Assembly (NCBI RefSeq): GCF_000025965.1
Contig: NC_006513.1
Location: 1,860,001-1,924,000 of the forward strand
From: Aromatoleum aromaticum EbN1
Lineage (GTDB): Bacteria > Pseudomonadota > Gammaproteobacteria > Burkholderiales > Rhodocyclaceae
Length of the DNA: 64,000 bases
Direction: 5' to 3'
Numbering within the stretch: position 1 is the first letter of the stretch; every line of letters begins with the position of its first letter. The notes under the pieces were generated by a model. It ran no database searches. It had not been told where the DNA came from and saw only the letters and a program-made list of their open reading frames with translations. Positions 1 to 17,211 of the stretch are shown here, one piece after another. The translations under genes and the position numbers were made by a program.

Positions 1-350
1 CCGATGCCGCGGCCTTCCTGTCGCAGGTACAGCAGGACGCCGCGCCCTTCGGCAGCGATCGCCGCGAGCGCCGCTTCGAGTTGCGGGCCGCAGTCGCAGC
101 GCCGGCTGAACAGGGCGTCGCCGGTGAGGCACTCGGAGTGAACGCGGGTCAGCACGGGTTTGCCATCGGCGACTGCTCCAAGCGTCAGCGCGACATGCTC
201 GCGCCCGGTCGCCGGCTCTTCGAAGCCGTGCATCCGGAAAATTGCCCAGGGGGTCGGCAACCGGCATGAAGCGACCAGGCGGGTGTTCCGCTGGTCGGTT
301 TCATCGGTGCTCGCAACCGGCCCGGCGTTTCGGGTATCCGCGGTGTGCAT
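1..350 (-). CDS. ribA: GTP cyclohydrolase II, 5' part only (runs off left edge)
   Basis: Opens riboflavin synthesis by converting GTP to 2,5-diamino-6-ribosylamino-pyrimidinone phosphate, formate and PPi in the cytoplasm. About 116 N-terminal residues are visible. They contain [10 protein letters not shown], the zinc-ligand pattern C-x10-C-x-C ([16 protein letters not shown]) and [14 protein letters not shown], all hallmarks of RibA. The ATG at 350-348 follows a GGAAGAGAG ribosome-binding site. The first ~35 residues are a poorly conserved leader, so a slightly later start is possible. There is no RibB domain at the N-terminus, so this is a stand-alone cyclohydrolase II as far as can be seen. 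It lies on the same strand as the flavin-related genes of the phenol cluster but is separated from them by a plus-strand gene, so co-transcription is not shown. Confidence 0.9.
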
Positions 351-607
351 CGTGATCTCTCTTCCATTACGGGTGGCGGCCGGAGTCATCGGAGGACCTG
401 GGTGGAGGTTTTCCCAACGTCCGTGCGAGGCCCGTCGTACCGCTTTCAACGAGAAGGTGACGTGTGCGCGCAGATCGGTCAACTGCAAAATGCGTGCTTT
501 CGTCGCGCGCCGCGCTCGATCGGTCGCAGAAAAGCGGCTGTGTCCGACGCTGTGTCCTAATATTGGGAGACGCGACGGCAAACGATCGCCGAGTTGCTGA
601 CGGAGGG

Positions 608-781
608 ATGATGCATACGCCTACACCGCCGGTGCCGGGTCCCCAACCGGATCCGGCACCGGAGCCCGACCCCGTGCCCGACCCGAGCAAAGACCCGGAT
701 CCGGAGACGGACGACGATACCGCGCAAGTGACCCGCGGACACCTGAAGAAAGGGGTGATCCTGAGCGCTTCACTCGCATAG
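608..781 (+). CDS. Small proline/aspartate-rich hypothetical protein
   Basis: I do not recognise this 57-residue ORF. It starts with ATG ATG at 608/611 next to a GGAGGG stretch. Its first two thirds are a P-D/P-E repeat ([20 protein letters not shown]) followed by an acidic DDD patch and the tail [14 protein letters not shown]. The low-complexity anionic composition suggests a disordered segment. It ends 8 bp before the DUF6351 gene, so the two could be co-transcribed. The reading frame extends further upstream, but without a convincing ribosome-binding site. It may be non-coding; the composition alone could come from GC-rich DNA. Confidence 0.35.
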
Positions 782-789
782 GGGGGAAT

Positions 790-3018
790 ATGCCGGCGAA
801 AGGGTGGGTCTGGTTGAGCTTGCTGCTGACGGCCACACTGTCCGCCGGGTCCTCCGCCCCGCCGAAGGCGCAACGTCCGATCGTGGTCGGCCTGCCGGCC
901 GGCTTCGATGCGAAGGCGCCCGCCGCACCCTACGACGGACCACATCCGTCGCGGTTGCAGCGTCCTGCCGAGACGTTCCGGTTTCCGATAAGGCTCGGCC
1001 AGGTAGGGCCGAGCGAAGCCCTGTTTGCCGGTCCCACACAGTATCCGTTCGTTTGCGATACCGAAGCTTCCGGCCTGGGTCAACCGCTGGTGGACAATCA
1101 TGCCGGAGTCGGCACGCCGGTCGTCTCGAAGGCCGCGACGGTCTTTGCGAACCCCGCACCGATCGGCTACAGCCAGGACTGTCTGGCGCGCACGCGGGCC
1201 TGGTATTACTACAAGCCGCGGGGCAAGGAAAAATTCGAGCGGTGGTCGGAAGCGGTGCGGGACGTCGACAGCGTCAGCATCAACGGTACCCCGGTGCCGT
1301 TCATCGTGCGCGTCGAAATGGGCACGATCAACCGTTTCGTCTACGTCATTGCGGCGCTGAAAGGGCCTCATGAAACTCTCGCTGCCCCGAGTGCCGCGCA
1401 CTGGAACGGCCGCCTGATCTACCAGTTTTCCGGCGGCGTCGGGATCGGGCACCGGCAAGGCAGGGTGAAGCCTTCGAGAGTCCTCGAGGGGCGGCGCGAG
1501 CAACTGGCGCAGGGCTATGCGGTCGTCGCGTCGACCGGCACGACGACTTCCACTCATTACAACATCTGGCTGGCCGAAGATACCGCGTTGCGCGTAAAGC
1601 GCCAGTTCGTCGCGCTATATGGCGAACCGGAGTATACGATCGGCGTGGGCGGGTCCGGTGGCGCGATCCAGCAGTATCTGCTGGCGCAGAACCGTCCCGG
1701 CCTGATCGATGCTGCGATTGCGCAGTATTCGTATCCCGACATGGTCACCCAGACCATCTGGGCGTTCGATTGCGAACTGCTGGAGTATTACTTCGACAGG
1801 ACCGACCGCCGCAATCCGCTGTGGCACCACGCCGAACACCGGCAATGGGTCGAAGGTCTCAACGCCCGCAACGATTACCAGGGCGAGGGCAAGGCGAGAG
1901 CCATCGCGACGACGACCCGGCTCGCCCTGCTGGCCGGTGAGCGCCGGGTGGCGGACGCCGAGGGTCAGACTGAATGCGTGGTCGGCTGGCGCGGGCTGAC
2001 GCCACTGGTGCTGAACCCGCGCTTTGCGTTCATCGAGGACCGACTTGCCAGACGGGTGTTCAGGCGTGTGCAGTGGAGCTATTTCGAGGATCTGAAGGAT
2101 TTCTACGGCACCGATGCGCAGGGCTATGCGCGCATCCCGTGGGACAACGTGGGAGTCCAATACGGCCTGCGGGCGCTCCAGCGTGGGCAGATCGACGTCG
2201 AGCAGTTCCTGCGCCTCAATGCCCGTGTCGGCACCTGGAAGCCCGTCGCCGAGATGAAGCGCGAGCGTTTCTGGATCCTGCGCGGAGCCAGCAGCGATCT
2301 GGATGATTTCTCGCCGTGGAGCGCGCACAACATGAATCGCGGCAAGACCCGCGACGCGCCGGCGCCGCGCTTCGAGGGCGATCGCCTGGCGATGGCGGCA
2401 GCGTATCGATCGGGCCAGGTCTTTCTCGGGCGCCTCGACATTCCGGTCATCGACGTGCGCCACTATCTGGAACCGGTGCTGGACATGCACCATGCTTCGG
2501 CGTCCTTTTCGGTGCGCGTGCGGCTCCTTGCGGCACAGGGGGAGGCGGGAAACCAGGCGATCTGGGTCAGCGACAGGAAGCACGATCCGACTCCCGAGGC
2601 CTTCGCGGCGATCGAGCGATGGCTCGCGGCCAGACGCGCGCGTCCCGAACAATCCTGGTCCGCGCTGCGTCCGGCGGCCGCGAGCGATCGTTGTATCGAT
2701 GCGCAGGGCAGGACGATGTTCAGCGGCGATCGGGTATGGGACGGTGAATGGAACCAGCGTCCGCCCGGCCCGTGCATGCAGGCCTATCCGATCTACGACA
2801 ATCCGCGCACCGTCGCGGGCGACAAGATACGTGGCGATCATTTCAAGTGCGCGCTGCAGACGGTTGGCGAAGCGCTCGATGCCGGGCTCTACGAACCGAT
2901 CGACATGCGTCCCTACCGGGCGCGACTGGAGCGGATCTTTCCGCAGGGCGTCTGTGACTACCGACAGGCCGATCAAGGCCGCCCGGCCGATCTGCCGGAG
3001 GCGGACGGCACCGGCTGA
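790..3018 (+). CDS. Exported DUF6351 family protein, probable alpha/beta-hydrolase fold
   Basis: A 742-residue protein with an N-terminal signal sequence (WVWLSLLLTATLSAGSSA), so probably periplasmic or outer-membrane associated. It matches my memory of the DUF6351 family in size and in its central segment. GVGGSGGAIQ around Ser289 looks like the nucleophile elbow of an alpha/beta hydrolase and is followed by AIAQYSYPDM. The C-terminal half is rich in Trp, Arg and Cys (QTECVVGW, CDYRQADQG), compatible with disulfides in an exported enzyme. The substrate is unknown; esters or polyhydroxyalkanoate-like substrates have been guessed for relatives, but nothing here proves it. The start at 790 follows a GGGGGA site and gives a complete signal peptide. 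The gene faces the end of the phenol cluster. Confidence 0.75.
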   Translation: MPAKGWVWLSLLLTATLSAGSSAPPKAQRPIVVGLPAGFDAKAPAAPYDGPHPSRLQRPAETFRFPIRLGQVGPSEALFAGPTQYPFVCDTEASGLGQPLVDNHAGVGTPVVSKAATVFANPAPIGYSQDCLARTRAWYYYKPRGKEKFERWSEAVRDVDSVSINGTPVPFIVRVEMGTINRFVYVIAALKGPHETLAAPSAAHWNGRLIYQFSGGVGIGHRQGRVKPSRVLEGRREQLAQGYAVVASTGTTTSTHYNIWLAEDTALRVKRQFVALYGEPEYTIGVGGSGGAIQQYLLAQNRPGLIDAAIAQYSYPDMVTQTIWAFDCELLEYYFDRTDRRNPLWHHAEHRQWVEGLNARNDYQGEGKARAIATTTRLALLAGERRVADAEGQTECVVGWRGLTPLVLNPRFAFIEDRLARRVFRRVQWSYFEDLKDFYGTDAQGYARIPWDNVGVQYGLRALQRGQIDVEQFLRLNARVGTWKPVAEMKRERFWILRGASSDLDDFSPWSAHNMNRGKTRDAPAPRFEGDRLAMAAAYRSGQVFLGRLDIPVIDVRHYLEPVLDMHHASASFSVRVRLLAAQGEAGNQAIWVSDRKHDPTPEAFAAIERWLAARRARPEQSWSALRPAAASDRCIDAQGRTMFSGDRVWDGEWNQRPPGPCMQAYPIYDNPRTVAGDKIRGDHFKCALQTVGEALDAGLYEPIDMRPYRARLERIFPQGVCDYRQADQGRPADLPEADGTG

Positions 3019-3137
3019 AAGCCTGCCGCCTGTCCGTGCAAGAGACTGCGGCACACCGTGCCACCCCGCGCGGGCCGCAGCCTTGCTCTCAAGAAAGCGC
3101 CGGGCAGCCCCAGGTTTTCTTGCCCTCCTCGGGGGGC

Positions 3138-3158
3138 GGAAACGGCTAAGCCGTTTCC
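3138..3158. terminator. Palindrome between convergent genes, possible terminator
   Basis: Perfect 10-bp arms (GGAAACGGCT / AGCCGTTTCC) around one central base, placed between the convergent stops at 3018 and 3168. There is no T-run on either side, so it is at best an atypical bidirectional terminator or an mRNA-end stabiliser. The rest of 3019-3167 shows nothing else. Confidence 0.4.
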
Positions 3159-3167
3159 TGGGGACGC

Positions 3168-4097
3168 TCAGAACGGCGTGACGAGCTTGAACCACGCCTT
3201 GTCGCCGCGGAAGCGGTTCTCGGCTTCGGTTTCGTGTTGCCACTGCGCGACCAGCAGCGTGCCGCCTTTCGTCGTGTAGCTGACGCTCGGGCCGATCGCG
3301 AACACTTCGCCGCGGCGCCCGGCGGACCATGGGCCGATCGCGGCCGGGATCTTGCGGCCGTCGAGCTCGTCGTCGGTCGTCTGCTTCACGTAGTAGCCCG
3401 ACAGGCCCGCCCCCCAGGGCCCGAAGCGCTTGCCGACGAGGTAGTCGATGTGGAGTTCGTCGCCGGACTCGTAGTCCATCTCCGGCGCTCCCGGTGCGGG
3501 GCGGAAGTCGTTGTTCTTCGCCTTGATGTTGTACATGAACTTGCCCGATACCTCCCAGCCGCTTTCCGACAGCCATGTCACGGCGAACACCGGCTCGACA
3601 CTCCAGTAGTGCGCGCCGATGCTCTTTCGCGGTTTGCCCGACTTGTACTTGCCGGTCGGCGCGTAGAAGTCGAGCACGGCGACCCAGCGCCAGTTGCCGG
3701 AATGCCATGAGATGGCGAGCGGCGAAAATACCAGGTCACCCAGTCCGGTGACCGTCTTGCTGCCGGCGCCGAGCTCCAGTTCCTGGTGCACGACCGGCAG
3801 GATCGCGTGCACCGCCCAGTTGCCGCCGAGGATCTGCTGGTTCGTGACCTTGACCCAGCGCAGCGCGTCGAACCATGCGGTGACGGAGGCGCCGGGCACT
3901 TTGTCGCCGTCGCCGTCGCGCAGGTCGCCGTCGTAATAGCCGAAGTAGTTCAGAAAATAATCGCCCGGCGGCGGCAGCGCGCCAGCGAGCCAGTTCTCGC
4001 TGCCGTGGGGGTATTGATCGCCGCCTTCCTTTGCGCCCGCACTTGTCGCAACGAGTGCCGACAGGGCGATCGCAAGGCCGATTTTGTTCATCCTCAT
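3168..4097 (-). CDS. Phenol_MetA_deg / SphA-type outer-membrane protein
   Basis: A 309-residue exported protein: MRMNKIGLAIALSALVATSAGA is a clear signal peptide, followed by alternating amphipathic beta strands and a final aromatic residue (WFKLVTPF), typical of an outer-membrane beta-barrel. It belongs to the family annotated as MetA-pathway of phenol degradation, or SphA-like transporter, found beside many aromatic-degradation operons. The family is thought to help hydrophobic substrates cross the outer membrane. The start at 4097 has an excellent AAGGAGGAG site; the upstream extension in the same frame has none. It is the last gene of the minus-strand phenol cluster, 160 bp after the Nudix gene, so phenol or p-cresol uptake is a reasonable but unproven role. 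Confidence 0.85.
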   Translation of the reverse strand: MRMNKIGLAIALSALVATSAGAKEGGDQYPHGSENWLAGALPPPGDYFLNYFGYYDGDLRDGDGDKVPGASVTAWFDALRWVKVTNQQILGGNWAVHAILPVVHQELELGAGSKTVTGLGDLVFSPLAISWHSGNWRWVAVLDFYAPTGKYKSGKPRKSIGAHYWSVEPVFAVTWLSESGWEVSGKFMYNIKAKNNDFRPAPGAPEMDYESGDELHIDYLVGKRFGPWGAGLSGYYVKQTTDDELDGRKIPAAIGPWSAGRRGEVFAIGPSVSYTTKGGTLLVAQWQHETEAENRFRGDKAWFKLVTPF

Positions 4098-4257
4098 GTG
4101 TCTCCTCCTTGATGTCTTATTGCTCTGCTCACTGCAATGCCCCGGCCGGAACGAGACGGCGCAATGGCCCGTCTCGTCCCGGCCGGAACGGTCGAACATC
4201 TTCGACCGTCGGCAGCCCTGCGCGGACCCACGGCTGCGAATGTGGTGCTCACGCTAT

Positions 4258-4806
4258 CTATCTTGCGGTCATCGTCCGGAGGCCCGGCTGGCGGCCCCAT
4301 TTCCACGGTGCCGTGACGTCCTCGATGACGTCGAAAAACCAGCGGTCGAGCGGCGGCGCGTCGACGGGCGGGCGCTGCACCGGCAGCTGGCCGGGAGCGA
4401 TCAGGCAGATCTCGCCGGCGTCGTCGCCGGCAACCGGTTCGCCGGCGATCGAGTGCGCGCGGTAGGCGAGGATCACGGCGCGAACGCCGGTCTGCGAATA
4501 TGCGCCGACGAAGCCGTCGACGACGACCTCGAGCCCGCTTTCCTCGCGCGCCTCGCGCACTACCGCCTCCTCGAGCGACTCGCCGAGCTCGACGTAGCCG
4601 CCCGGAGGCGCCCAGTAGCCGGCCAGCGGTTCGAGCTTGCGGCGGATCAGCACCAGCCGGCCCGCATGTTCGATGATCCCCAGCACGACCGGCGCCGGCT
4701 TGTGGAACGCGGTATGGCCGCACGCCGGACAGGTCTCGCGGTCCCGGCCGTGGATCGGCGCGACGGTCAGCGGGGTGCGGCAGTGCGGGCAGAATTGCAG
4801 TGACAT
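4258..4806 (-). CDS. Nudix hydrolase with N-terminal zinc ribbon
   Basis: A 182-residue protein. Residues 1-35 form a zinc ribbon (FCPHC and CPACG). The Nudix domain follows with an intact box GX5EX7REX2EEXG in GYVELGESLEEAVVREAREESG. Nudix enzymes hydrolyse nucleoside-diphosphate-X compounds; this subgroup resembles NUDIX proteins acting on NAD, FAD or similar dinucleotides, but the substrate cannot be read from sequence. MutT-like genes are known in phenol clusters of Thauera and relatives. It lies 19 bp downstream of the riboflavin-kinase-like gene, so a link to flavin nucleotide turnover (for example releasing FMN from FAD) is an attractive inference. The start at 4806 follows a GGAGAC site. 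Confidence 0.88.
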   Translation of the reverse strand: MSLQFCPHCRTPLTVAPIHGRDRETCPACGHTAFHKPAPVVLGIIEHAGRLVLIRRKLEPLAGYWAPPGGYVELGESLEEAVVREAREESGLEVVVDGFVGAYSQTGVRAVILAYRAHSIAGEPVAGDDAGEICLIAPGQLPVQRPPVDAPPLDRWFFDVIEDVTAPWKWGRQPGLRTMTAR

Positions 4807-4825
4807 GTCGGTCTCCTGTGGGGGG

Positions 4826-5305
4826 TCACGCCGGAACGTCGGGGAGGAGCGGATGGGGCGCGGCGCCGACGCAGGGAGACATCGGCAGTCCGCCCCGCCA
4901 GCCGGTCACGACATGCAGCTGCACCGCGTCGCCGTCGGCCAGGCCGAGCGTGTGGCGCACCGGCAGCGGCGCGATGACCTCTAGTTTGTCCGGCGGGTAA
5001 TCGTCCATGTCCGGCAGCACCAGCGCGCCCGAAAGGCGCCCGGCAAGGCGCACCGGGAAGCACTTTGCCGCGCACAACCCGTGCCGCGGCGTGATCGCGA
5101 TGCCGCGCGTGGCGAGCAGCCGCAGGCGCAGCGCCTCCCAGCGCGCGCCGTCCATGCGCAGGTTGAACGTGCCGGGGCAGGGGGCGAAGCCGAGCCTGGT
5201 GCGGAATTCCTCGACGACCCAGTCGATCGTGGTAAATCGCGTGCCTTCGCCGAGGCCCGAGCAGACGACGCCTTGGAGTTTGACGGTTGTGCCGGTTTCA
5301 CGCAT
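4826..5305 (-). CDS. Archaeal-type (CTP-dependent, DUF120) riboflavin kinase homologue
   Basis: A 159-residue protein whose core matches the CTP-dependent riboflavin kinase (RibK/DUF120) family of archaea: KLQGVVCSGLGEGTRFT near the start, the signature APCPGTFNLRM, then RHGLCAAKCFPVRL and a C-terminal LADGDAVQLHVV. Archaeal RibK converts riboflavin to FMN. Bacteria normally use the unrelated RibF, so a stand-alone DUF120 protein in a bacterial catabolic cluster is unusual. Placement between the UbiX-like gene and the Nudix gene suggests it supplies FMN for prenylation, or modifies a flavin-like cofactor. I chose the start at 5305 because the family begins close to this residue; the ribosome-binding site (AGGGCGAG) is mediocre. 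Activity and nucleotide donor are not proven. Confidence 0.8.
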   Translation of the reverse strand: MRETGTTVKLQGVVCSGLGEGTRFTTIDWVVEEFRTRLGFAPCPGTFNLRMDGARWEALRLRLLATRGIAITPRHGLCAAKCFPVRLAGRLSGALVLPDMDDYPPDKLEVIAPLPVRHTLGLADGDAVQLHVVTGWRGGLPMSPCVGAAPHPLLPDVPA

Positions 5306-5491
5306 CGCTCGCCCTTGTGCTCGATAAAAAACGTTGCCGATTCGTGGTCTTGCAGGCGGAAAACGAAGTTTCGGCGTAGCCGAAAGCGAAGCGCCTTCCA
5401 CCGGATTGCAGTTGCCGCGAGCCCAAACGCCGCGAATGCCGCCTTCGGCTCATCCGCCCTGCGGCGGTTGCGGTCGGTCGAGCCCATCGCC

Positions 5492-6082
5492 TCAGTCCGA
5501 ACGTGCTTTCGCGTGCTCGCGTTCCTCGTTGCCGGTCCAGCGCCCGAACAGGTCGACGTCGAGGTCGAACTGGTCGAGCACTTTCGTCACCGATTGGTTG
5601 ATGATGTCGTCGAGCGTCTTCGGCCGGTGGTAGAACGCCGGCAGCGGCGGCACCAGCACCGCGCCGGTCTCGGTGACCTGCGTCATCAGCCGCAGGTGTC
5701 CGAGATGCAGCGGAGTTTCGCGGATCATCAGCACGAGCTTGCGGCGCTCCTTGAGCGTCACGTCGGCGGCGCGGATCAGCAGGTTCGTGTTGAACGAGTT
5801 CGCCACTGCCGACAGCGTCTTGATCGAGCACGGCGCGATGATCATGCCGGCGTGGCGGAACGAGCCGCTCGCGATCGACGCGCCGACGTCGTTGATGTCA
5901 TGCACGCAGGAGGCGAGGCGCTTGACGTCGTTGATCGAATAATCGGTCTCGTAGACGATCGTGCGCTTGGCCGAATCCGACATCACGAGGTCGGTGTCGA
6001 CGCCGATTTTCTTCAGCACCTCGAGGATGCGGATGCCGTAGATCGCGCCGCTGGCACCGGAAATTCCGACGACTATTCTCAT
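5492..6082 (-). CDS. UbiX-like flavin prenyltransferase
   Basis: A 196-residue UbiX/Pad1 family protein. It begins with the FMN-binding signature MRIVVGISGASGAIYGIR and has the conserved PCSIKTLSAVANS, NLLIRAADVTLKERRKLVLM and RETPLHLGHLRLM blocks. UbiX joins a dimethylallyl group to FMN to make prenylated FMN, the cofactor of UbiD-type (de)carboxylases, so it probably serves one or more of the three UbiD paralogues upstream in the same transcription unit. The start ATG at 6082 has a GGGAG site and lies 13 bp after the preceding gene. The protein ends with a charged tail, REHAKARSD. Whether this copy also serves ubiquinone synthesis cannot be told. Confidence 0.93.
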   Translation of the reverse strand: MRIVVGISGASGAIYGIRILEVLKKIGVDTDLVMSDSAKRTIVYETDYSINDVKRLASCVHDINDVGASIASGSFRHAGMIIAPCSIKTLSAVANSFNTNLLIRAADVTLKERRKLVLMIRETPLHLGHLRLMTQVTETGAVLVPPLPAFYHRPKTLDDIINQSVTKVLDQFDLDVDLFGRWTGNEEREHAKARSD

Positions 6083-6095
6083 TTTCAGATCTCCC

Positions 6096-7442
6096 TCAGG
6101 AAAGCAGTGCGGCGATGAGTGCGCGCGCTTTTGCCGCGGCGGCGGCGGGCAGGGTGATGCGGTCGGACTCGGCGCCGCTCGTGCGCGTCGCGATGAAGCC
6201 GACTTTCGAAGCGGCGTTGCCGGATGCCGACGGGTCGATGACATAGGCTTCGCAGCCGTGGATCACGACAGTGTCGCGCGCGGGCTGGTAACGTGTCGCC
6301 AGCGCCCACGCGACTTCGCGCGGGTCGCGGATATCGACGTCGTCGTCGACGATGGTGACCATCTTCAGGCGGCGGTCGAGATTCAGCGCCAGCATCACGA
6401 GCCTTCTCACGTCGGCTGGCGTGCAGTCGTGAACGGCGATGACGGCGGAAAAGCCGCTCGTGCCAGCGGCCAGTTCCAGATCGGCGACGCCGCCGATCAG
6501 CACCTGCAACTGGCCGAGCAGCTCGGCACCGGCCGCGAGCGACAGCAGCGCGTCGACTTCGGCCGACCATGGACAAAGGCCCGGGTAGATGAAGTTGTCG
6601 CGGTGCGTGACCGCGCTCACTTCGATGACAGGGCTTACGTTCGAGAAGTAATGCCCGGTGTTCTCGCCGAACGGCCCTTCGAGTTCGCGCACGCCCGGCA
6701 GCATCCGCCCTTCGATGACGATCTCGGCGTGCGCCGGCACTTCGACGTCGACCGTCTCGGCGCGCACCAGTTCGACCGGTTCGCCGCGCAACGCGCCGGC
6801 GATCGCCATCTTGTCCGGCACCAGCGGACCGACCTTGACGACCGACGCGAGCAGCGTCGCCGGTTCGAGGCCGAGCGCGACCGCGACGTCGAGCGGCCGG
6901 CCGGCGGCTTCGGCGCGCGCGAGGAACTGCGGCAGCGGCGGATTCGCGAGCAGGATGCCGAGCCGCCTGCCGCCCTTGACCATCATGCGGTGGATGCCCA
7001 TGCCGCGCCGGCCGGTCTCGGGGTCGGTGCACAGCACGACGCCGGTGGTGATGAACGGCGCCGCGTCCTTCTCATGGTGGGTCAGGATCGGCAACAGCGA
7101 CAGCAGGTCGTCGGGTGCGCGGTGCACGACCTCCTTGACCGGCACCGCGCCCGTGGCCACGACCGGCGGCACGCCGTGTTCCTTGCGCTGCAGCCAGGTT
7201 TGCGCGAGCCGCTCTTCAGTCGTGCCGAGTGCGCGGGCGAGGCGCGGGCGGCTGGCGATCAGGTTGCCGGCGACGCGCGTGCCGGGATAGCCGCGGAGGT
7301 TGTCGAACAGCACCGCCGGCGCGCCCGCGGGCAGGCCACGCAACACTGCCGCGATCTCGAAGCGCGGATCGAACTCGTCGCGGACGTGGCGCAGATCGTC
7401 GCCGAGGTCGGCGAGAAATGCGCGCAAATCGGAATAAGCCAT
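6096..7442 (-). CDS. Third UbiD-family (de)carboxylase of the phenol cluster
   Basis: A 448-residue UbiD-family protein distinct from the two carboxylase subunits upstream. The UbiD catalytic set appears present: Arg152 in MGIHRMMV, and Glu255 and Glu260 in EGPFGE. It starts at an ATG with a GGGGGAACG site and is separated from ppcC by 121 bp containing a strong hairpin, while UbiX follows after only 13 bp. The close UbiD-UbiX pairing is the usual arrangement for a prenyl-FMN-dependent enzyme. Possible roles are a decarboxylase or carboxylase acting on 4-hydroxybenzoate-like compounds, or an accessory or alternative phenylphosphate carboxylase subunit. The sequence does not decide between these. 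Confidence 0.9.
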   Translation of the reverse strand: MAYSDLRAFLADLGDDLRHVRDEFDPRFEIAAVLRGLPAGAPAVLFDNLRGYPGTRVAGNLIASRPRLARALGTTEERLAQTWLQRKEHGVPPVVATGAVPVKEVVHRAPDDLLSLLPILTHHEKDAAPFITTGVVLCTDPETGRRGMGIHRMMVKGGRRLGILLANPPLPQFLARAEAAGRPLDVAVALGLEPATLLASVVKVGPLVPDKMAIAGALRGEPVELVRAETVDVEVPAHAEIVIEGRMLPGVRELEGPFGENTGHYFSNVSPVIEVSAVTHRDNFIYPGLCPWSAEVDALLSLAAGAELLGQLQVLIGGVADLELAAGTSGFSAVIAVHDCTPADVRRLVMLALNLDRRLKMVTIVDDDVDIRDPREVAWALATRYQPARDTVVIHGCEAYVIDPSASGNAASKVGFIATRTSGAESDRITLPAAAAAKARALIAALLS

Positions 7443-7563: not shown

Positions 7564-7818
7564 CTACAGATACTTCGCCGGCATGCGCTGGACCTGCTCG
7601 ATGATGCGGATCGAGAACTGCTGGCTGCACAGCTGGCCGCGGCCGAAACGCACTTGCAGGCGGTCGGGGAACTTGTCGAGCGCATTCGACAGTTCAGCCT
7701 TGACGCGCTGATAAGTGTATTTCTTCAGCCCCGGATTAAGGGTGCGCACGCTCAGTTCGAGCTCCGTGCCTTCCGGCAGCTCAGCCAGATCCATGACGAA
7801 AACTTCCCACTGGTTCAT
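7564..7818 (-). CDS. ppcC: Phenylphosphate carboxylase, gamma subunit
   Basis: An 84-residue protein without a broad family, matching the size (about 10 kDa) and position of the gamma subunit of phenylphosphate carboxylase described in Thauera aromatica. It is hydrophilic and highly charged, with a beta-rich start (MNQWEVFVMDLAELPEGTEL) and a basic middle (LNPGLKKYTYQRVKAE). In the known enzyme the alpha, beta and gamma subunits exchange label between CO2 and 4-hydroxybenzoate, and delta is needed for net carboxylation of phenylphosphate. It begins 12 bp after ppcA with an AAGGAGACGACG site, so the two are translated from one message. The assignment rests on context, size and recalled similarity. 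Confidence 0.88.
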   Translation of the reverse strand: MNQWEVFVMDLAELPEGTELELSVRTLNPGLKKYTYQRVKAELSNALDKFPDRLQVRFGRGQLCSQQFSIRIIEQVQRMPAKYL

Positions 7819-7830
7819 CGCGTCGTCTCC

Positions 7831-9288
7831 TTATTTGACCGGCTTGAAGCCGTAGTCGGTCCAGCTGTTCGTGACTTTGTCCTGGATGTCCTGCGGATAG
7901 ACTTTCTTGAAGCTGACGACCGACGGCACGTCGTTCGTCTTGTCCCAGTCGACCGGCCACAGGCAGTCGAACAGCACTTGCGAGCCGATCGAGTACTTGC
8001 GGTCGTGCGGCGTTGCGTGCGGATACAGCGCTGTGCCGGTGGTGTTCTTGAACACGTGGATGCCGCGCTCCGGGTTGCAGCGCGTGCAGAACGCGTGATA
8101 GACCTCGTCCCAGTTGAAGATGTCGGTCTGGTCGTCGACGACCATCACCATGTGGAACCACGGGCCGAGCTTCGAGCCGAACGCGAGCTGCGCGATCTGC
8201 ATCGCGATGCCGGCGTACGTCGGCTTCACGCCGACGATCATCATGTGGTGCGTCGAGCGCGGATGCATATACACGCCGGTCACCGGGATGCCCTGGCTCT
8301 TGAGCAGCTTCTCCAGTTCCAGCCCGAGCGAGAACGAACGCAGCAGCTGCCCTTCGTCCTGCGGCACGCCCATGTTCGAGATCGTCATCGTCGCGTTGTT
8401 GCGATAGGTGATCGCATCGACGCGGAACGTCACGCGAAAGTCGCGCGGGCTGGTGCGGTAGCCGGTGTATTCGCCGAACGGGCCTTCCTCGACCTTGTAG
8501 TCGGGCAGGATCATCCCTTCGATGATGATTTCGGCATCCGCCGGCACTTCGAGGTCGTTCGTCTCGCACTTCACCAGCCGCACCGCTTCGCCGGACAGCA
8601 TGCCGCACAATTCCGGCTCGGGGATCGGCGAGGGCGCGCACGCGGCCATCGCGGCCAGCGGCGACAGGCCGATCGCGGTCGCGAACGGGCAGCCTTCGCC
8701 GCGCGGCAGGTAGTAATCGGTCAGCGCCTTGCCCAGATCCGAGAACGGGAACACCGCTCCGCTCATCGTGCGGCCGTCCCACATCATCTGCCGGTACATG
8801 CCCCAGTTCACGTCGCCGCGCACCGGGTGCCTCGTGATCACCGCGTGCCACGTGCCGACGTAGCGCCCGCCGTCGCCGTCATGCACCAGCGGCACCGGCA
8901 GCTTCGTCAGGTCGACGTCGTCGCCGAGCAGGATGTTTTCCTTGCACGGCGCGTCGCGGCGGTCGATCACGACCGGTTCGATCGGCTCGCTGTTGGTGCG
9001 CTTCAAGTACTCGGCGCCGATCTGCGGCAAGGTCGAAGCCGGGTCCATGCCGAGCGAGATCGCCATGCGGCGGTACGTCGACAGCGGCGCGCCGAAGTAG
9101 CTGAAGCCGGGATAGTCCTTGATGTTCTCCATGAACGGTGCGGCTTCGCCGAGCTCGCAGACGCGCCGCACGATCGCGCCGGCCTCGTTGTCCCAGTCCA
9201 CTTCCTGCCTGATGCGCACCGCGTCACCGGATCTTACGCAGGCCTCGATGAATTCGCGGTTGTTCTTCGGTGCCGAAATCTTTGCCAC
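7831..9288 (-). CDS. ppcA: Phenylphosphate carboxylase, alpha subunit (UbiD family)
   Basis: A 485-residue UbiD-family protein forming part of the cytoplasmic enzyme that turns phenylphosphate plus CO2 into 4-hydroxybenzoate and phosphate. Residues equivalent to the UbiD catalytic triad are present: Arg166 in GMYRQMM, and Glu268 and Glu273 in EGPFGE. I chose the GTG at 9288 (mature start AKISAPKNNREF) because an AAGGAG site lies 6 bp upstream and it agrees with the family start; the longer in-frame extension has no such site. Gene order ppcB-ppcD-ppcA-ppcC matches my recollection of Thauera. It differs clearly from PpcB, so the two are old paralogues rather than a recent duplication. Whether it binds prenyl-FMN is not established by sequence alone. 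Confidence 0.93.
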   Translation of the reverse strand: MAKISAPKNNREFIEACVRSGDAVRIRQEVDWDNEAGAIVRRVCELGEAAPFMENIKDYPGFSYFGAPLSTYRRMAISLGMDPASTLPQIGAEYLKRTNSEPIEPVVIDRRDAPCKENILLGDDVDLTKLPVPLVHDGDGGRYVGTWHAVITRHPVRGDVNWGMYRQMMWDGRTMSGAVFPFSDLGKALTDYYLPRGEGCPFATAIGLSPLAAMAACAPSPIPEPELCGMLSGEAVRLVKCETNDLEVPADAEIIIEGMILPDYKVEEGPFGEYTGYRTSPRDFRVTFRVDAITYRNNATMTISNMGVPQDEGQLLRSFSLGLELEKLLKSQGIPVTGVYMHPRSTHHMMIVGVKPTYAGIAMQIAQLAFGSKLGPWFHMVMVVDDQTDIFNWDEVYHAFCTRCNPERGIHVFKNTTGTALYPHATPHDRKYSIGSQVLFDCLWPVDWDKTNDVPSVVSFKKVYPQDIQDKVTNSWTDYGFKPVK

Positions 9289-9338: not shown

Positions 9339-9848
9339 TCAGTGGATTTTCGCGAGGACAGCGTCCCACTTGCCCTGCGCTTTCAGGATCAGCTCGGCGA
9401 CTTCACGCACTGCGCCGTGGCCGCCGCGCGCGGTCGTGACGTAGGTCGCGGCTTCCTTGACGTCCGCGACCGCGTCGCCGACCGCGACCGCGAGCCCGAC
9501 GCGCTTCATCATCGACAGATCGACGAGGTCGTCCCCGACGTAGCAGACTTCGGCGTCGGAGATGTTCATCTCCTCGAGCATCTGCGCGTACGGCTCGGTC
9601 TTCTTCTTGATCCCCTCGTGGAAGCGCTTGATCTTCAGCTCCTCGGCGCGGTGGCGCACCGCCCCGGATTTCTTCGACGTGATGATCGCCACGTCGATGC
9701 CGCACAGCTGCAGCACGATCACGCCCATCCCGTCCTTGATGTCGAAGTTGCGCGATTCGATGCCTTCGTCATTAATGACGATGCGCCCGTCGGTCATCAC
9801 GCCGTCGACGTCGAGGATCACCAGCTTGATGTTCTTGGCCTGTTCCAT
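9339..9848 (-). CDS. ppcD: Phenylphosphate carboxylase, delta subunit (HAD phosphatase, KdsC-like)
   Basis: A 169-residue HAD-superfamily protein. Motif I is LDVDGVMTDG (Asp nucleophile and general acid), motif II is the IITSKKS region, and the GDDLVDLSMM block carries motif IV aspartates. It resembles KDO-8-phosphate phosphatase. In the characterised complex this subunit is thought to hydrolyse the phosphoester of phenylphosphate, delivering bound phenolate to the alpha/beta/gamma core. Its position between ppcB and ppcA supports this rather than a lipopolysaccharide role. The start at 9848 is 64 bp after ppcB. All key catalytic residues seem intact. Confidence 0.93.
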   Translation of the reverse strand: MEQAKNIKLVILDVDGVMTDGRIVINDEGIESRNFDIKDGMGVIVLQLCGIDVAIITSKKSGAVRHRAEELKIKRFHEGIKKKTEPYAQMLEEMNISDAEVCYVGDDLVDLSMMKRVGLAVAVGDAVADVKEAATYVTTARGGHGAVREVAELILKAQGKWDAVLAKIH

Positions 9849-9912: not shown

Positions 9913-11331
9913 TCAGTCGATGCCGTACTCGTGCCAGCGGGCGCGGATCTTCGCGAGCATTTCCTCGTCCATGCGCGCCTCGACCGGCTTCTGCTTCCAC
10001 TCGTACGGGATGCACGCGTCCATCAGGATGCGCGACGTCGTGAGCTTGTCGCCGTCCGGGTCGAGCGCCGGGTCGAGCGGCGTCGAGCGGCCGCGCTTGA
10101 TGAGTTCGGTGCCGCGCATCGGGTCGTAACGGCACGACAGCGCCCAGAACACGCGCTGCAGGTCGTCGGCGGCGATGTCCTCGTCGACGGTGATGATGCC
10201 CTTCATGCCGTAGCTGCCGGTGTTGCTGCCCATGACCGCGTCGGCGACCTGGCGCGAGTGGCCGGGGTACGCCTGCTTGAGCGACACGACGGACCAGAAG
10301 CGCCCGGTCGATTCCGGCAGCACGCACACCGACTGGACGCCGGGGATGCGCATCTGCTCGAGCTCGGTCCACAGGGTCGCGGTCCGCGTGAAGGCGAGCA
10401 GCATATGCACGTCGGTCACCGGACGGCCCTGGCCGGTTGCCCACAGGATCGGGTTGTTGCGGTGCAGGATCTGCTGCACTTCGAGCACCGGCTTCGGAAT
10501 CGGCTTGTGCAGCTCGTCGGTGTAGTAGCCGGTGTATTCGGCAAACGGGCCTTCGGGCAGGAAGGCGTTCGGGTCGATCTCGCCTTCGAGGACGATCTCG
10601 GCGCCCGCCGGCACGGGCAGGCCGGTCAGCGGTGCCATCAGGAACTCGGCCTGCTGGCCGCGCACCGTGCCGGTGATGTCGAAGTCGCTCGCGCCCTTGT
10701 GCATCAGAGTGCCGGCCATGAAGATCAGCGGATCGCAGCCGATGATCGCCGCCGCGGGCATCTTCTTGCCCAGCTTCGCGTATTTCTTCATGATCCGCTC
10801 GCCGCGCTTGCCCGGCAGGATCTGCACGCCGCAGCGCTTGTCGTCGAGCATCTGCATGCGGTAGGTGCCGAGGTTCACCTCGCCGGTCTCCGGATCGCGC
10901 AGCACCACCGACACCATCGTGCCGATGTAGCGCCCGCCGTCGAGCGGGAAGAACTTCGGCACCGGGAACATGTTGAGATCGACCTTGCCGCCGCTGAGCA
11001 CGTTTTCCAGCACCGGGCCGTCCTTCACTTCCTTCGCCTTGATCAAGCCTTCGGATGTGATCGTCTTCTTCATCCACTGCTGCGCCGACTCGCACAGGGT
11101 CAGGTGGTGCGGCAGGCCGAGCATGATCGCGAGCCGCTTCGTCGTCGCGAATGCGCCGGTGAACACCGGGGTGTCGTAGCCCTTGATGCTCTCGAACAGC
11201 AGCGCCGGGCCTTTCTTCTCCTCGGTCAGCTTGGAGACGTGCGAGATCTCCAGATTCCAGTCGACTTCGGTCGTGACGCGCTTGAGTTCGTGGGCTTCGG
11301 CGCACTGGTTGATGAAATATCTCAGGTCCAT
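9913..11331 (-). CDS. ppcB: Phenylphosphate carboxylase, beta subunit (UbiD family)
   Basis: A 472-residue UbiD-family protein, the first gene of the carboxylase block and 56 bp downstream of ppsC. The UbiD-type residues are Arg158 in GTYRMQM, and Glu260 and Glu265 in EGPFAE, where Ala replaces the usual Gly between the two glutamates. The ATG at 11331 has an AGGAG site 7 bp upstream. With PpcA it is expected to form the core that binds phenolate and CO2. The alpha/beta naming follows gene order and subunit size recalled from Thauera aromatica; the two could be swapped if naming differs. Confidence 0.92.
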   Translation of the reverse strand: MDLRYFINQCAEAHELKRVTTEVDWNLEISHVSKLTEEKKGPALLFESIKGYDTPVFTGAFATTKRLAIMLGLPHHLTLCESAQQWMKKTITSEGLIKAKEVKDGPVLENVLSGGKVDLNMFPVPKFFPLDGGRYIGTMVSVVLRDPETGEVNLGTYRMQMLDDKRCGVQILPGKRGERIMKKYAKLGKKMPAAAIIGCDPLIFMAGTLMHKGASDFDITGTVRGQQAEFLMAPLTGLPVPAGAEIVLEGEIDPNAFLPEGPFAEYTGYYTDELHKPIPKPVLEVQQILHRNNPILWATGQGRPVTDVHMLLAFTRTATLWTELEQMRIPGVQSVCVLPESTGRFWSVVSLKQAYPGHSRQVADAVMGSNTGSYGMKGIITVDEDIAADDLQRVFWALSCRYDPMRGTELIKRGRSTPLDPALDPDGDKLTTSRILMDACIPYEWKQKPVEARMDEEMLAKIRARWHEYGID

Positions 11332-11387: not shown

Positions 11388-12056
11388 TCAATGCATTGCC
11401 TGGACGGATTCGATGACTTCGAATCCTGCGTTTCCTAGGGCGCGGATCACGGTGTCGGTGTCGGCGGCGTGAAAGCGGACGATCACTTTCTTGGCGTGCG
11501 ACGCGGAGGACGCGTTCAGGTGGCCAATGCTGATCGGATAGATCGCGAGCAGTTCGGCGTTCGCCGCTTCGATGATGTCGGCGATGTGCCCCATCGTTCC
11601 CGGCTTGAGTTCCATCGGCGCGAGCGTCACGCCGCTGCGCTTTTCCCAGGCGCCGAGGAAATGCGCTGCCAGCGAATACATCTCGATCGCCGAAATCATC
11701 CCCACGACATGGTCGCCGTCCATCACCGGCAACTGGCCGACGCCGTGCTCCTGCCCGATCTGCAGGCAGTGCTCCATCGTGTCGTCGGCGTCGATCGTCG
11801 CCGGATTGCGGACCATGATGTCCTTGACCTTGACGTGATTCGAGAAATAGCTGAGCTCGTCGGTGTCCTGGGTGCGCAGCGCGGCGTGCGCAGCCCGCAG
11901 GCAGCCGGCGCGCGTGATGAGGCCGCGCAGGCGACCGTCATCGACGACCGGCAGCGCGTGGACATTGGCTTCCGACAGGATCCGCTTCGCTTCGGAAAGC
12001 AGCGTGTCGCCGGTCAGCACGGTCGGATTCGGCTGCATCCAGTTGCGTACGATCAT
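11388..12056 (-). CDS. ppsC: Phenylphosphate synthase subunit 3 (tandem CBS-domain protein)
   Basis: A 222-residue protein with two CBS domains: residues ~1-58 (MIVRNWMQPNP ... RLRGLITRAG) and ~78-135 (VKDIMVRNPATID ... HVVGMISAIEM). An ACT-like C-terminal region follows (~150-222). CBS pairs bind adenine nucleotides. In Thauera the corresponding protein is not essential but stimulates phenylphosphate synthase several-fold, so it may sense energy charge. The start at 12056 is set by AGGAGG, which overlaps the ppsB stop codon region 13 bp away, indicating coupled translation. A much longer in-frame ORF upstream overlaps ppsB and is rejected. Confidence 0.92.
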   Translation of the reverse strand: MIVRNWMQPNPTVLTGDTLLSEAKRILSEANVHALPVVDDGRLRGLITRAGCLRAAHAALRTQDTDELSYFSNHVKVKDIMVRNPATIDADDTMEHCLQIGQEHGVGQLPVMDGDHVVGMISAIEMYSLAAHFLGAWEKRSGVTLAPMELKPGTMGHIADIIEAANAELLAIYPISIGHLNASSASHAKKVIVRFHAADTDTVIRALGNAGFEVIESVQAMH

Positions 12057-12069
12057 TTTGGTCGTCCTC

Positions 12070-13194
12070 CTAGCTGAGTCGTTTTCCGGCCAGCAGGCTC
12101 GACACGATGTAATCCATCGCCGACGTGCTGCTTGCCGCACCGGTGGTTTTCTGCCGATTGCTCCAGATCGTTTCGGGGCGCGCCTGCAGGATGAAAATGT
12201 TCCCGCCCGCCGGCAGGTGCTTGTCGATCGCCCATTCGATGTCCATCGGGCGGCCATAGTGCTTTTCGATTTTCTTGGCCATCCACGCGAGTTCGCCGAT
12301 CTCGTCGTCGGTGATCGACTGGATGGTCTGGCGCTCGGCAGGGACCGGGAGCGCAATCGACTTCTGGGTTTTCAGATCGACGGTGTGGCAGATCTCCTTC
12401 GTCGAGATCGTCCGCTCGATGATGTCGAGCGTGATCTTGTTGACGACGAAGTTGTCCGGTGTGACTTCGCCCGACACGACGGATTCGCCGAAGCCGAAGT
12501 TCGAGTCGATGACGATCACCGAACGGTCGCCGGTCGCCGGATGCACGGTGAACATCACGCCCGCGGTGTAGGCGTTCGCCATCTTCTGGATGCCGACGCT
12601 GATCGCGACCTGTTCGTGCGGGAATCCCATCTTCATGCGATAGGCGATCGCCCGGCCGGTGTAGAGGCTGGAGATGCACCGGCGCACGTGGTGGATCACG
12701 TCATCGACGCCGCGGATCCACAGGTAGGTGTCCTGCTGGCCGGCGAAGCTCGCGCCCGGCAGATCCTCGGCGGTCGCGGAGGAGCGCACCGCGACCGGCA
12801 CTGCCGGCAGGTAGCAGCGTACCGACAGCTTGCGGTAGGCCTCGGCGATCAGGTCCTCGAGCTCGATCGGCAGCGGGCGCGATTCGATCATCTCGCGGAT
12901 CGCGTGCGACGCCTCCTCGAGCTTGTCCATGTCCTCGTGGTCGAGCCCGTCGAGGAGTCCCGCGACTTCGGCCTGGATGCCGGCCTCGCGCATGAATTGG
13001 GCATAGCCCCGGGTGGTCAGCGCGAAGCCTGGCGGCACCCGCACGCTCGCATTGATCAGTTCGCCGAGCGACGCGCACTTGCCGCCGACCAGCGGCACCG
13101 AGTCCTTGCCGCATTCCTCGAAAGAGCACACTTTCGGCGCGACGCTGTCGAGGGCGGTCCAGGGCAGGGCCGCTTCAGAAATAACGCTTCCCAT
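12070..13194 (-). CDS. ppsB: Phenylphosphate synthase subunit 2 (PEP-synthase N-terminal, ATP-binding domain)
   Basis: A 374-residue protein equivalent to the nucleotide-binding N-terminal third of PEP synthase. VPLVGGKCASLGELI near residues 33-50, PVAVRSSATAEDLPGASFAGQQDT in the middle and NIFILQARPETIW near the end are the standard PPDK_N motifs. It binds ATP and transfers the beta-phosphoryl group to the histidine of PpsA; phenol then receives it, giving phenylphosphate, AMP and Pi overall. I chose ATG 13194, which has AGAGG at good spacing; a GTG at 13203 in the same frame sits too close to that site. The gene starts 13 bp after ppsA. Splitting PEP synthase into two genes is characteristic of this enzyme. 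Confidence 0.94.
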   Translation of the reverse strand: MGSVISEAALPWTALDSVAPKVCSFEECGKDSVPLVGGKCASLGELINASVRVPPGFALTTRGYAQFMREAGIQAEVAGLLDGLDHEDMDKLEEASHAIREMIESRPLPIELEDLIAEAYRKLSVRCYLPAVPVAVRSSATAEDLPGASFAGQQDTYLWIRGVDDVIHHVRRCISSLYTGRAIAYRMKMGFPHEQVAISVGIQKMANAYTAGVMFTVHPATGDRSVIVIDSNFGFGESVVSGEVTPDNFVVNKITLDIIERTISTKEICHTVDLKTQKSIALPVPAERQTIQSITDDEIGELAWMAKKIEKHYGRPMDIEWAIDKHLPAGGNIFILQARPETIWSNRQKTTGAASSTSAMDYIVSSLLAGKRLS

Positions 13195-13207
13195 CGGAGT
13201 CACCTCT

Positions 13208-15046
13208 TCAGTCCGTGATGATCGAGATCACGCCGGACGAGCCATCCACGCGCAATGTCATGCCGGTGCGGATCACGCGCGTCGACACTCCCGTGCCGAC
13301 AACCGCCGGCATGCCGTATTCGCGACACACGATCGCGGCATGGCTCATGACGCCGCCGACATCGGTGACGCAGGCCTTGATCTTGGCGAAGGCCGGAGCC
13401 CACGACGGCGACGTCGTCGGCGCGACGAGAATCTCGCCTTCCTGCAGGTCGCGGATGTCCTCGGCGCTGCGGCACACGCGGGCCCGGCCTTCGACCGTGC
13501 CGGGGCTCGCGGCGAAGCCTTTCAGCTCGGTGATGCTGTCGGGGTCGCCGATGTCCTGCACGGCGGCCCAGTCGGACAGGGAGTTGTTCGTGACTCCCCA
13601 CAGCACGATCGTGAAGGGTTCCTGGATGACTTCCGGCGCAACGCCGATCGCCGGCGGCGGGTTCCATTCGCGGAACTTCTGCATCACGCCCTTGCGCCAT
13701 TCGATTTCGGCCGGCCAGGTCGCGGTGCCGCGCGGCGTGACACCGGTCGCCCACGCGGTGACGACATCCCACAGCGCCTGCTTGATCTCGTCGCGGCGCA
13801 GAAGCCAGATGTCCTCAATGTCGGCGATCATGCGGTGTTCCTTCATGATCGCGGCGACTTCGCGCATCTTGTTCCAGAACACCGAGTGGAACCAGTGCTC
13901 GACATAGAAGAGATGGTTCTCGACGTACGGGAACACCGTCTTCGCGCAGCTGAGCAGTTCGTCGAACTGCTTGCGATCTTCGTCGCTGTCGATCAGCTCG
14001 CGGTATTCCGCAGTGATCCGTTCGCGCTCGGCACGCACCGCTTCCATCGGCCGGTCGATCGAGACCCCTGCGCGCAGCTTGCCGATGTAGGTCTGGATGC
14101 CGTCGAGCGGGATGTCGAGGTTGTCGTTCCAGCTGCGGTCGGTGTGGAACCAGCCGGTGCCCGACGAGATGTTGAACCACGGGTAGCGCGCCTTCTCGAA
14201 CGCCGCGAGCCACTCGATGCCGTGACGGTGCCCGGCGAGCGCAGCCTTGACGTCGGCCCACTCGCGGTGGCCGGCGACGATGTCGTCGACTTCGAGCTTC
14301 ACCGCTTTCTTCGCCAGTTCCTTCAGCTCGTCGTCAGGCCGGTACATGATCACGTCGATGCCGGAGATCATCTGCGTGACGCGCTGCATCGGGATGCTCG
14401 GGAACAGCTTCTGCGTGAAGTCCATGAAGAACACATAGGCCGCGTAGCCGAGGTTCAGGAACTCGAAGTGGTACTGCCAGCACTTGATGCCGAGGTTGAT
14501 CAGGTCGTCGTAGTTTTTCAGCAGGTGATAGCCCTTCGACTCGCCGACGCCGTCGGTGACGACGCTGAGCGCCTCGACGTCGGGCAGGGGCGGGATCTCG
14601 AGCGCTTCGAGTTCGGCGATCGCCGCCTCCATCTTCACTTTCCATTTCGCTTCGAGCGCGTCCCAGTTCTTGTAGTAGAAGCCCGCACGCTCCATGAAAT
14701 TCGGCACTCGCGCGCCGATCTCGGCAGGGTCCTTGACGGGTACCGGCGAGATATAGACATAGCCGTTGATGATGCGGTGATCGACGCCGCGCACCGGCGG
14801 CACCTGGAAGATGCGGTTGTTGAACTGCGACAGCGCGAGGTACCAGGCTTCGTCCCAGATCGTGTCGAACGGGTACAGCGGCTCCGGGTAATGCAGTCCG
14901 TCGTAGAACCAGAAAGTGTCCTTCTCGTACTGGTTGCGCTGCGGGTCGTCGGTGACGAACTGGTACTGGTACGGATACATCCGCTCCCAGCCTTCGGTCC
15001 CCGGAATCGTCTTGGCCTTGATGTCGTGCGGAACAGGAAACTTCAT
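13208..15046 (-). CDS. ppsA: Phenylphosphate synthase subunit 1 (phospho-histidine subunit)
   Basis: A 612-residue first enzyme of anaerobic phenol degradation. The C-terminal third is the swivelling phosphohistidine domain of PEP synthase: TSPSWAPAFAKIKACVTDVG followed by GGVMSHAAIV, placing the phosphorylated histidine at residue 569, the same position I recall for the Thauera aromatica enzyme. The N-terminal ~450 residues lack the PEP/pyruvate domain and presumably bind phenol. ATG 15046 has a GGAGGGGG site; the longer ORF reaching 15451 crosses the promoter region and is rejected. It is the first gene of the operon and is driven by the sigma54-type promoter at 15125-15139. Confidence 0.95.
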   Translation of the reverse strand: MKFPVPHDIKAKTIPGTEGWERMYPYQYQFVTDDPQRNQYEKDTFWFYDGLHYPEPLYPFDTIWDEAWYLALSQFNNRIFQVPPVRGVDHRIINGYVYISPVPVKDPAEIGARVPNFMERAGFYYKNWDALEAKWKVKMEAAIAELEALEIPPLPDVEALSVVTDGVGESKGYHLLKNYDDLINLGIKCWQYHFEFLNLGYAAYVFFMDFTQKLFPSIPMQRVTQMISGIDVIMYRPDDELKELAKKAVKLEVDDIVAGHREWADVKAALAGHRHGIEWLAAFEKARYPWFNISSGTGWFHTDRSWNDNLDIPLDGIQTYIGKLRAGVSIDRPMEAVRAERERITAEYRELIDSDEDRKQFDELLSCAKTVFPYVENHLFYVEHWFHSVFWNKMREVAAIMKEHRMIADIEDIWLLRRDEIKQALWDVVTAWATGVTPRGTATWPAEIEWRKGVMQKFREWNPPPAIGVAPEVIQEPFTIVLWGVTNNSLSDWAAVQDIGDPDSITELKGFAASPGTVEGRARVCRSAEDIRDLQEGEILVAPTTSPSWAPAFAKIKACVTDVGGVMSHAAIVCREYGMPAVVGTGVSTRVIRTGMTLRVDGSSGVISIITD

Positions 15047-15474: not shown

Positions 15475-17207
<1,733 letters not shown>

Positions 17208-17211
<4 letters not shown>

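Follow-up and report, generated by a model that had tools for sequence, protein, structure and literature searches.

Prenylated flavin mononucleotide (prFMN) is the cofactor of UbiD (de)carboxylases, which in the locus described here presumably act as carboxylases on activated phenol in the anaerobic pathway. The flavin prenyltransferase UbiX forms it by prenylating reduced FMN with dimethylallyl monophosphate (DMAP) or dimethylallyl pyrophosphate (DMAPP) (PMC6541611; PMC13040415). Overexpressed UbiD enzymes are described as often ending with an inactive radical form of prFMN, and accessory genes that serve the cofactor include those for the prFMN maturase PhdC and the prFMNH2 chaperone LpdD (PMC13040415). 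An operon for phenylphosphate synthase and carboxylase is likewise known from Thauera aromatica and Aromatoleum, the T. aromatica cluster being described with the further open reading frames (ORFs) 7-11, 13 and 14 (PMC6114531). Two kinds of riboflavin kinase bear on what follows, the archaeal, CTP-dependent RibK (MJ0056; PDB 2vbu, 2vbv) together with RbkR (5trd), and the bifunctional riboflavin kinase/flavin adenine dinucleotide (FAD) synthetase RibF, which belongs to a different Pfam family (PF01687).

We analyzed a 64,000-nucleotide stretch of the Aromatoleum aromaticum EbN1 genome (NC_006513.1, positions 1,860,001 to 1,924,000; hereafter the window), which contains a phenol operon with the same genes, and focused on its DUF120 gene, called ribK below, which lies directly behind ubiX. 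We found that its product probably is a monofunctional riboflavin kinase making FMN for the adjacent UbiX, and that by sequence it is a member of a bacterial subfamily of RibK adjoining UbiX in several phyla. What this adds to the known operon is a reading of the ORF behind ubiX, a likely function for a gene annotated only as ‘DUF120 domain-containing protein’ in Azoarcus sp. KH32C. If true, the kinase, being linked to UbiX, would add to prFMN supply an upstream and directly testable part, and an enzyme type named after archaea would reach into several bacterial phyla whose members have RibF already. PhdC and LpdD are likened to RibK by role only; they act after prFMNH2 has formed, whereas RibK would act earlier, on FMN supply. 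A search of Creative Commons-licensed literature found no paper that links riboflavin kinase or DUF120 functionally to UbiX, prFMN or phenylphosphate carboxylase; within that literature, the kinase assignment and the cross-phylum link to UbiX look new.

A riboflavin kinase homolog of the archaeal type

The DUF120 protein matched PF01982 at 105.8 bits (cut-off 25) over profile positions 1-121 of 121, and its best PDB matches by sequence were the RibK proteins MJ0056 and that of T. acidophilum (E 5e-14 to 2e-10). The first-pass annotation had called a DUF120 kinase homolog at this place and proposed a search against PF01982, and the clear match bears it out; the zinc-ribbon Nudix hydrolase, the UbiX homolog and the three UbiD paralogs (UbiD3, PpcA and PpcB) that it had named were also recovered by family profiles (Table 1). 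A structure model built from an alignment of 17 sequences had a mean predicted local distance difference test score of 85.7. Foldseek with this model returned 5trd, 2vbu, 2vbs, 2vbv, 2oyn and 2p3m, all RibK (E 1e-10 to 8e-9), and every one of the seven PDB matches at E ≤ 0.001 was RibK. The window protein is 26-29% identical to archaeal RibK and RbkR, with which it shares the Pfam family, the modeled fold, a conserved Glu and the GTxN motif, which we take to be the Mg site. It did not reach the NCBIfam equivalogs of archaeal RibK, NF040694 and NF010762 (58.3 vs. 168 and 80 vs. 279).

Residue conservation was read from an alignment of 100 rows, 95 bacterial and 5 archaeal. Thr46, Asn48 and Glu109 were kept in all 100 rows, while Cys78 was present in 95/95 bacterial and 0/5 archaeal rows and Tyr103 in 90/95 bacterial rows, a position at which 4/5 archaeal rows have His. 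Cys78 may serve as a provisional signature of the bacterial subfamily, as judged against five archaeal rows; Cys82 (82/95 bacterial rows) is no such mark because 3/5 archaeal rows also carry it. The bacterial members further differ from archaeal RibK in that their hosts have RibF and that UbiX is a frequent neighbor. In a tree, for which the tool warned of few columns and long branches, the archaeal rows together with one bacterial row (L172) were separated from the remaining bacterial rows (98/95 support).

Linkage of ribK to ubiX and the phenol operon

Within the family, the gene follows the phenol operon. PF01982 occurred in 21 of 199 family genomes and the carboxylase subunit PpcB at ≥ 995.6 bits in 17, all of which were among the 21 (hypergeometric P = 3.6e-21, not corrected for kinship). 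The kinase gene lay beside Ppc genes in 17/17 genomes with true PpcB and shared its stretch with PpcB in 15; in the other two (G433, G401) the contig ends, PpcA is present and PpcB is on another contig. UbiX was a neighbor in all 17 operons (2 kb away in G401), and UbiD3 and Nudix accompanied the kinase in 16 and 15 of them, respectively. The association of RibK with Ppc and UbiX thus exceeds chance. The remaining four PF01982 genomes are of one genus (g219) and have the domain fused to a HAD phosphatase, as seen by translation in four and by Pfam scan in three; among eight genomes with one PpcB-like match each at 559-571 bits, one (G579) has PF01982, again HAD-fused. A sample of the phylum had PF01982 in only 2 of 398 genomes, the present one and one with a very divergent protein. 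The first-pass annotation had considered it unusual for a kinase of the archaeal type to stand alone in a catabolic operon of a bacterium, which is accurate for the phylum but not for the phenol operons of the family, where 17/17 have it.

Three related loci were seen on the side. In a genome of the same phylum, a BacA-family gene adjoins a strongly diverged DUF120 protein (L044 8261-8812, 28.9 bits). In Aromatoleum buckelii, RibK also occurs in an additional Pps/Ppc cluster (L112), with no UbiX or PpcD match in the stretch. A Chloroflexi metagenome-assembled genome (MAG; L084) combines Ppc, UbiD, UbiX and RibK with PpsB and PpsA in one cluster, whose genes share 49-74% identity with those of the window; this would reflect either transfer or binning error.

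We then assessed the neighborhood of RibK across phyla. A single-sequence scan of genome contigs gave no loci; scanning named genomes with an alignment yielded 65, which lean to the phenol type because the one pattern of that scan comes from phenol-operon proteins; Pfam searches by phylum do not have this bias. With near-identical rows removed and two loci without a UbiX match (L044, L170) dropped by hand, 94 bacterial loci remained, whose counts are phylogenetically non-independent. UbiX lay within 300 bases of RibK in 69 of these, within 1 kb in 70 (70/96 once L044 and L170 are included) and within 3 kb in 72, compared to 59 with UbiD within 1 kb, 46 with Nudix within 300 bases and 5 with type 2 isopentenyl pyrophosphate (IPP) isomerase within 1 kb. 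The RibK-UbiX link is strong, though not universal.

Thirteen loci had UbiX within 1 kb and no UbiD match in the stretch, or 12 without L121, which is cut by the contig inside UbiX. In Nitrospinota (L128, L131) the order was RibBA, UbiX, RibK; in Binatota (L134, L135, L137) and Myxococcota (L136, L138) RibK was followed by UbiX and PNPOx-type genes; and in L127 and L129 RibK, UbiX and type 2 IPP isomerase were consecutive, the isomerases reaching 419 and 414 bits against TIGR02151 (cut-off 281), while the other three isomerases were found by tblastn only. L165 had a HAD-RibK fusion beside UbiX and RibBA, and L166 also belongs to this set. In the Chloroflexota MAG of L132, UbiX and RibK were fused in one frame of 328 amino acids (PF02441, E 1.6e-42; PF01982, E 3e-25). 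Pfam searches found PF01982 in 8/301 genomes of the L132 phylum, 12/148 of the L135 phylum and 2/2 of the L131 phylum, with UbiX within 1 kb in 3/8, 6/12 and 2/2, respectively. Their stretches held further Ppc-UbiD-UbiX-RibK clusters (L171, L173, L175, L176) and a cluster of UbiD, HAD, RibK-HAD, UbiX, RibK and IPP isomerase (L182).

RibK-HAD phosphatase fusions, in both domain orders, were observed in several lineages (L038, L039, L041, L043, L133, L125, L165, L174, L178, L179, L182), identified by Pfam for L038, L039, L043 and L125 and through translations, frames and tblastn for the others.

Proposed function and competing explanations

The pairing with UbiX in several phyla, together with one fusion, suggests that RibK is probably a dedicated FMN supplier for prFMN. 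RibK would phosphorylate riboflavin to FMN beside a separate RibF. UbiX would then prenylate this FMN in its reduced form, with DMAPP supplied by type 2 IPP isomerase where that enzyme is present, and the resulting prFMN would serve the UbiD-type carboxylases encoded in the phenol operon. RibF, whose riboflavin-to-FMN reaction is the one proposed for RibK, was encoded by a separate gene in the EbN1 genome and in 21/21 further genomes (22/22), making RibK an extra kinase; the second kinase would exist because RibF alone falls short of the demand for prFMN. We infer the riboflavin substrate, the hand-over of FMN to UbiX, the reason for a second kinase and the cytidine triphosphate (CTP) donor, the last from the family name. 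The first-pass annotation had envisaged a supply line from FMN to prenyl-FMN, and the adjacency of UbiX and RibK, their fusion and the clusters with RibBA or type 2 IPP isomerase agree with it, whereas the part it gave to ribA does not hold (see below). A more elaborate arrangement is possible but doubtful, in which a distinct RibK subfamily with an invariant Cys forms a physical unit with UbiX and passes its FMN directly to the prenyltransferase, maybe from reduced riboflavin or under thiol gating, with type 2 IPP isomerase, RibBA, Nudix or HAD proteins completing the supply of substrates.

Several observations weigh against a kinase dedicated to UbiX. PF01982 is missing from 178/199 family genomes, while 185/199 match the UbiD-type PpcB profile at E ≤ 0.001, and EbN1 carries four copies of UbiX but a single kinase, to which one of the copies is linked. 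UbiX is therefore not generally dependent on the kinase, given these four copies and the 178 genomes. The window DUF120 gene is the only PF01982 match in EbN1; elsewhere in that genome, two more UbiX genes lie with a UbiD-family gene (G000 contig C3, 70467-81134). The phenylphosphoamidate carboxylase of D. anilini is reported to work with plain FMN (PMC7500099). Among the bacterial loci, 24/94 had no UbiX within 1 kb, of which four have a contig end close by (L102, L113, L116, L140; a UbiX end is visible there in L113 and L116), and the remainder includes HAD fusions (L038, L039, L041, L043, L133, L125, L178, L179) as well as RibK-PNPOx pairs in three genomes of the L132 phylum (L167-L169). 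The phylum searches without phenol bias gave UbiX within 1 kb in 11/22 genomes. Lastly, the UbiX-RibK fusion was found in one MAG only and its short linker contains a Met, such that a lost stop codon is possible.

These loci leave some room for RibK as a general booster of FMN and FAD for all flavoenzymes of a catabolic pathway rather than for UbiX specifically, which we consider improbable. The RibK-PNPOx-type pairs without a UbiX match and the half of the phylum-search genomes without UbiX nearby would fit such a role, as would three haloarchaeal plasmid loci (L183, L184, L185) with RibK and RibB amid flavoenzyme and catabolic genes and with no UbiX match, a possible case of parallel, local flavin supply. 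UbiX, however, was the commonest of the searched partners within 1 kb, it is fused to RibK in one MAG, and 12 loci combine RibK with UbiX where the stretch has no UbiD match, all of which argues for supply to UbiX.

The flavin side of the bacterial site may differ from the archaeal one, which also counts against the proposed reaction. Thr99 of MJ0056, presumably an FMN contact, and His101 are typical of archaea (5/5 and 4/5 rows), but among the 95 bacterial rows only 3 Thr and 3 His occur; Thr99 lies two positions before the Tyr103 site, and the window protein has Asp and Tyr at the two positions. The kinase could then act on another substrate of the pathway, either a flavin in modified or reduced form or a prenyl alcohol, turning prenol into DMAP, which appears unlikely, though less so than a general booster; a modified flavin as the product had been raised in the first-pass annotation as well. 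The replacement of archaeal residues by Cys78 and Tyr103 in a site that keeps Thr46, Asn48 and Glu109 is consistent with such a change, as are type 2 IPP isomerase and HAD phosphatases among the partners. The modeled fold, on the other hand, matched riboflavin kinases only, the RibBA neighbors (L128, L131, L165) indicate riboflavin, and the UbiX proteins read in RibK loci carry Gln or His at the donor position, so that DMAP need not be made (see below).

RibK is also fast-evolving. The ratio of nonsynonymous to synonymous substitution rates (dN/dS, Nei-Gojobori) was 0.105-0.578 in 10 pairs and exceeded that of UbiX in 9/10, which tells against the proposed role and could suit a DUF120 protein that is degenerate or regulatory and lacks kinase activity, as could the Glu of the Gly-rich loop, kept in only 66/95 bacterial rows (GDGVG in L034, GLGQA in HAD fusions). 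This explanation is very improbable, since Thr46, Asn48 and Glu109 are invariant in the bacterial rows, dN/dS was < 1 in 10/10 pairs and archaeal rows, too, keep the loop Glu only in part (3/5). RibK is constrained but fast-evolving. Compared to G496 (L034), identity with the window was 1.00 for PpcA, 0.98 for UbiD3, 0.96 for UbiX, 0.59 for RibK and 0.76 for Nudix, and the synonymous divergence (dS) climbed from 0.11-0.21 to 0.60; this drop in identity and jump in dS suggest a recombination boundary between ubiX and ribK.

Prenyl donor and accessory partners

One residue differs between DMAP-specific and DMAPP-using UbiX enzymes (F181 in PaUbiX, Q203 in AnUbiX and H164 in O157 UbiX), and AnUbiX is described as DMAPP-specific; the residue is not the sole determinant of the donor (PMC6541611). 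The window UbiX, whose closest PDB match is a PAD1 chain (6qlg, E 3.2e-59), has Gln at this position. Across RibK loci, counting one best match per locus, 66 of the 70 UbiX proteins read by the pattern had Gln and four had His; of six more matches that lacked the pattern, outside this count, four showed Gln, Gln, Gln and His in their end sequences and two were cut short. The three other UbiX copies of EbN1 have His, His and Gln, so Gln or His is not special to UbiX with a kinase. A DMAP-making step would be unnecessary with these residues, which lowered the case for Nudix or HAD as a required step from DMAPP to DMAP (Gln or His in 70/70 UbiX read).

The solved structures nearest to the Nudix protein by sequence were 2yyh and 3cng, and its score against the NAD(+) diphosphatase equivalog NF001299 was below the cut-off (48.9 vs. 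158). Plant NUDX23-type enzymes cleave FAD to FMN and AMP. The Nudix protein may likewise yield FMN from FAD, or act on the prenyl donor. PNPOx-type neighbors were considered as prFMN maturases, but PDB sequence searches with a protein from each of L127 and L168 yielded weak matches, none of them named PhdC.

Organization of the operon and its left flank

The anaerobic phenol operon is encoded by the minus strand between about 15046 and 4258, in the order PpsA, PpsB, PpsC, PpcB, PpcD, PpcA, the ORF in the place of ppcG, UbiD3, UbiX, DUF120 and Nudix, the last gene. A plasmid of Azoarcus sp. KH32C has the operon annotated in identical order, with the DUF120 gene overlapping the end of ubiX by 4 bases. 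PpcA, PpcB and PpcD all exceeded their NCBIfam equivalog cut-offs, and UbiX also passed a second profile (TIGR00421, 247.8 bits; cut-off 108.9). Three genes were named with the help of KH32C, where the 84-amino-acid ORF corresponds in location to an annotated ppcG, the PpsC-like gene to a CBS-domain protein and the putative PheR to a sigma-54-dependent regulator.

Table 1 Genes of the phenol operon and its flanks, with positions in the window
Feature	Position	Strand	Basis or remark
ribA, GTP cyclohydrolase II, domain part in window	1..272	-	domain match; outside operon
DUF6351 gene, tannase-like, 742 aa (amino acids)	790-3018	+	between ribA and operon
MetA-type gene	3171-4097	-	between ribA and operon
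Nudix hydrolase, 182 aa, N-terminal zinc-ribbon-like CxxC...CxxC	4258..4806	-	PF00293 E 4.8e-15
RibK, DUF120/CTP-dependent riboflavin kinase homolog, 159 aa	4826..5305	-	PF01982 E 1.9e-30
UbiX flavin prenyltransferase, 196 aa	5492..6082	-	NF004685 262.9 bits, cut-off 188
UbiD3, third UbiD-family protein	6096..7442 (about)	-	PF01977; TIGR00148 298.2 bits, cut-off 244.85; start at MAYSDLR inferred
84-aa ORF, ppcG place (phenylphosphate carboxylase gamma)	7564..7818	-	ORF list; position only
PpcA, phenylphosphate carboxylase alpha, UbiD family	7831..9288, start approximate	-	TIGR02723 1184.6 bits
PpcD, phenylphosphate carboxylase delta, HAD	9339..9848	-	TIGR02726 378.9 bits
PpcB, phenylphosphate carboxylase beta, UbiD family	9913..11331	-	TIGR02724 1133.4 bits
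PpsC-like gene	11388..12029, start tentative	-	ORF list; homologs at equal place
PpsB-like, phenylphosphate synthase subunit	12070..13203	-	ORF list; place and homologs
PpsA-like, phenylphosphate synthase subunit	13208..15046, start inferred	-	ORF list; place and homologs
Regulator-like gene, divergent, called PheR by place	15475..17211	+	ORF list; KH32C position

The first-pass annotation had also counted ribA, placed at 1-350, among the flavin-supply genes packed around the carboxylase cluster, which we reject. The gene extends past the left edge of the window, as does its domain, of which Table 1 lists the inner part; EbN1 has two genes for GTP cyclohydrolase II, this one included. It is a separate gene with the DUF6351 and MetA-type genes between it and the operon, and because one of these is on the opposite strand and proximity is not conserved, ribA is not packed around the cluster. 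RibA had no match in the 10-19 kb stretches around the 16 remaining phenol operons from the sampled family genomes, and in the set of 65 named loci a single phenol operon, in A. buckelii (L085), had RibA nearby. The DUF6351 protein has a 95% identical copy near the operon in L034, L076 and L085.

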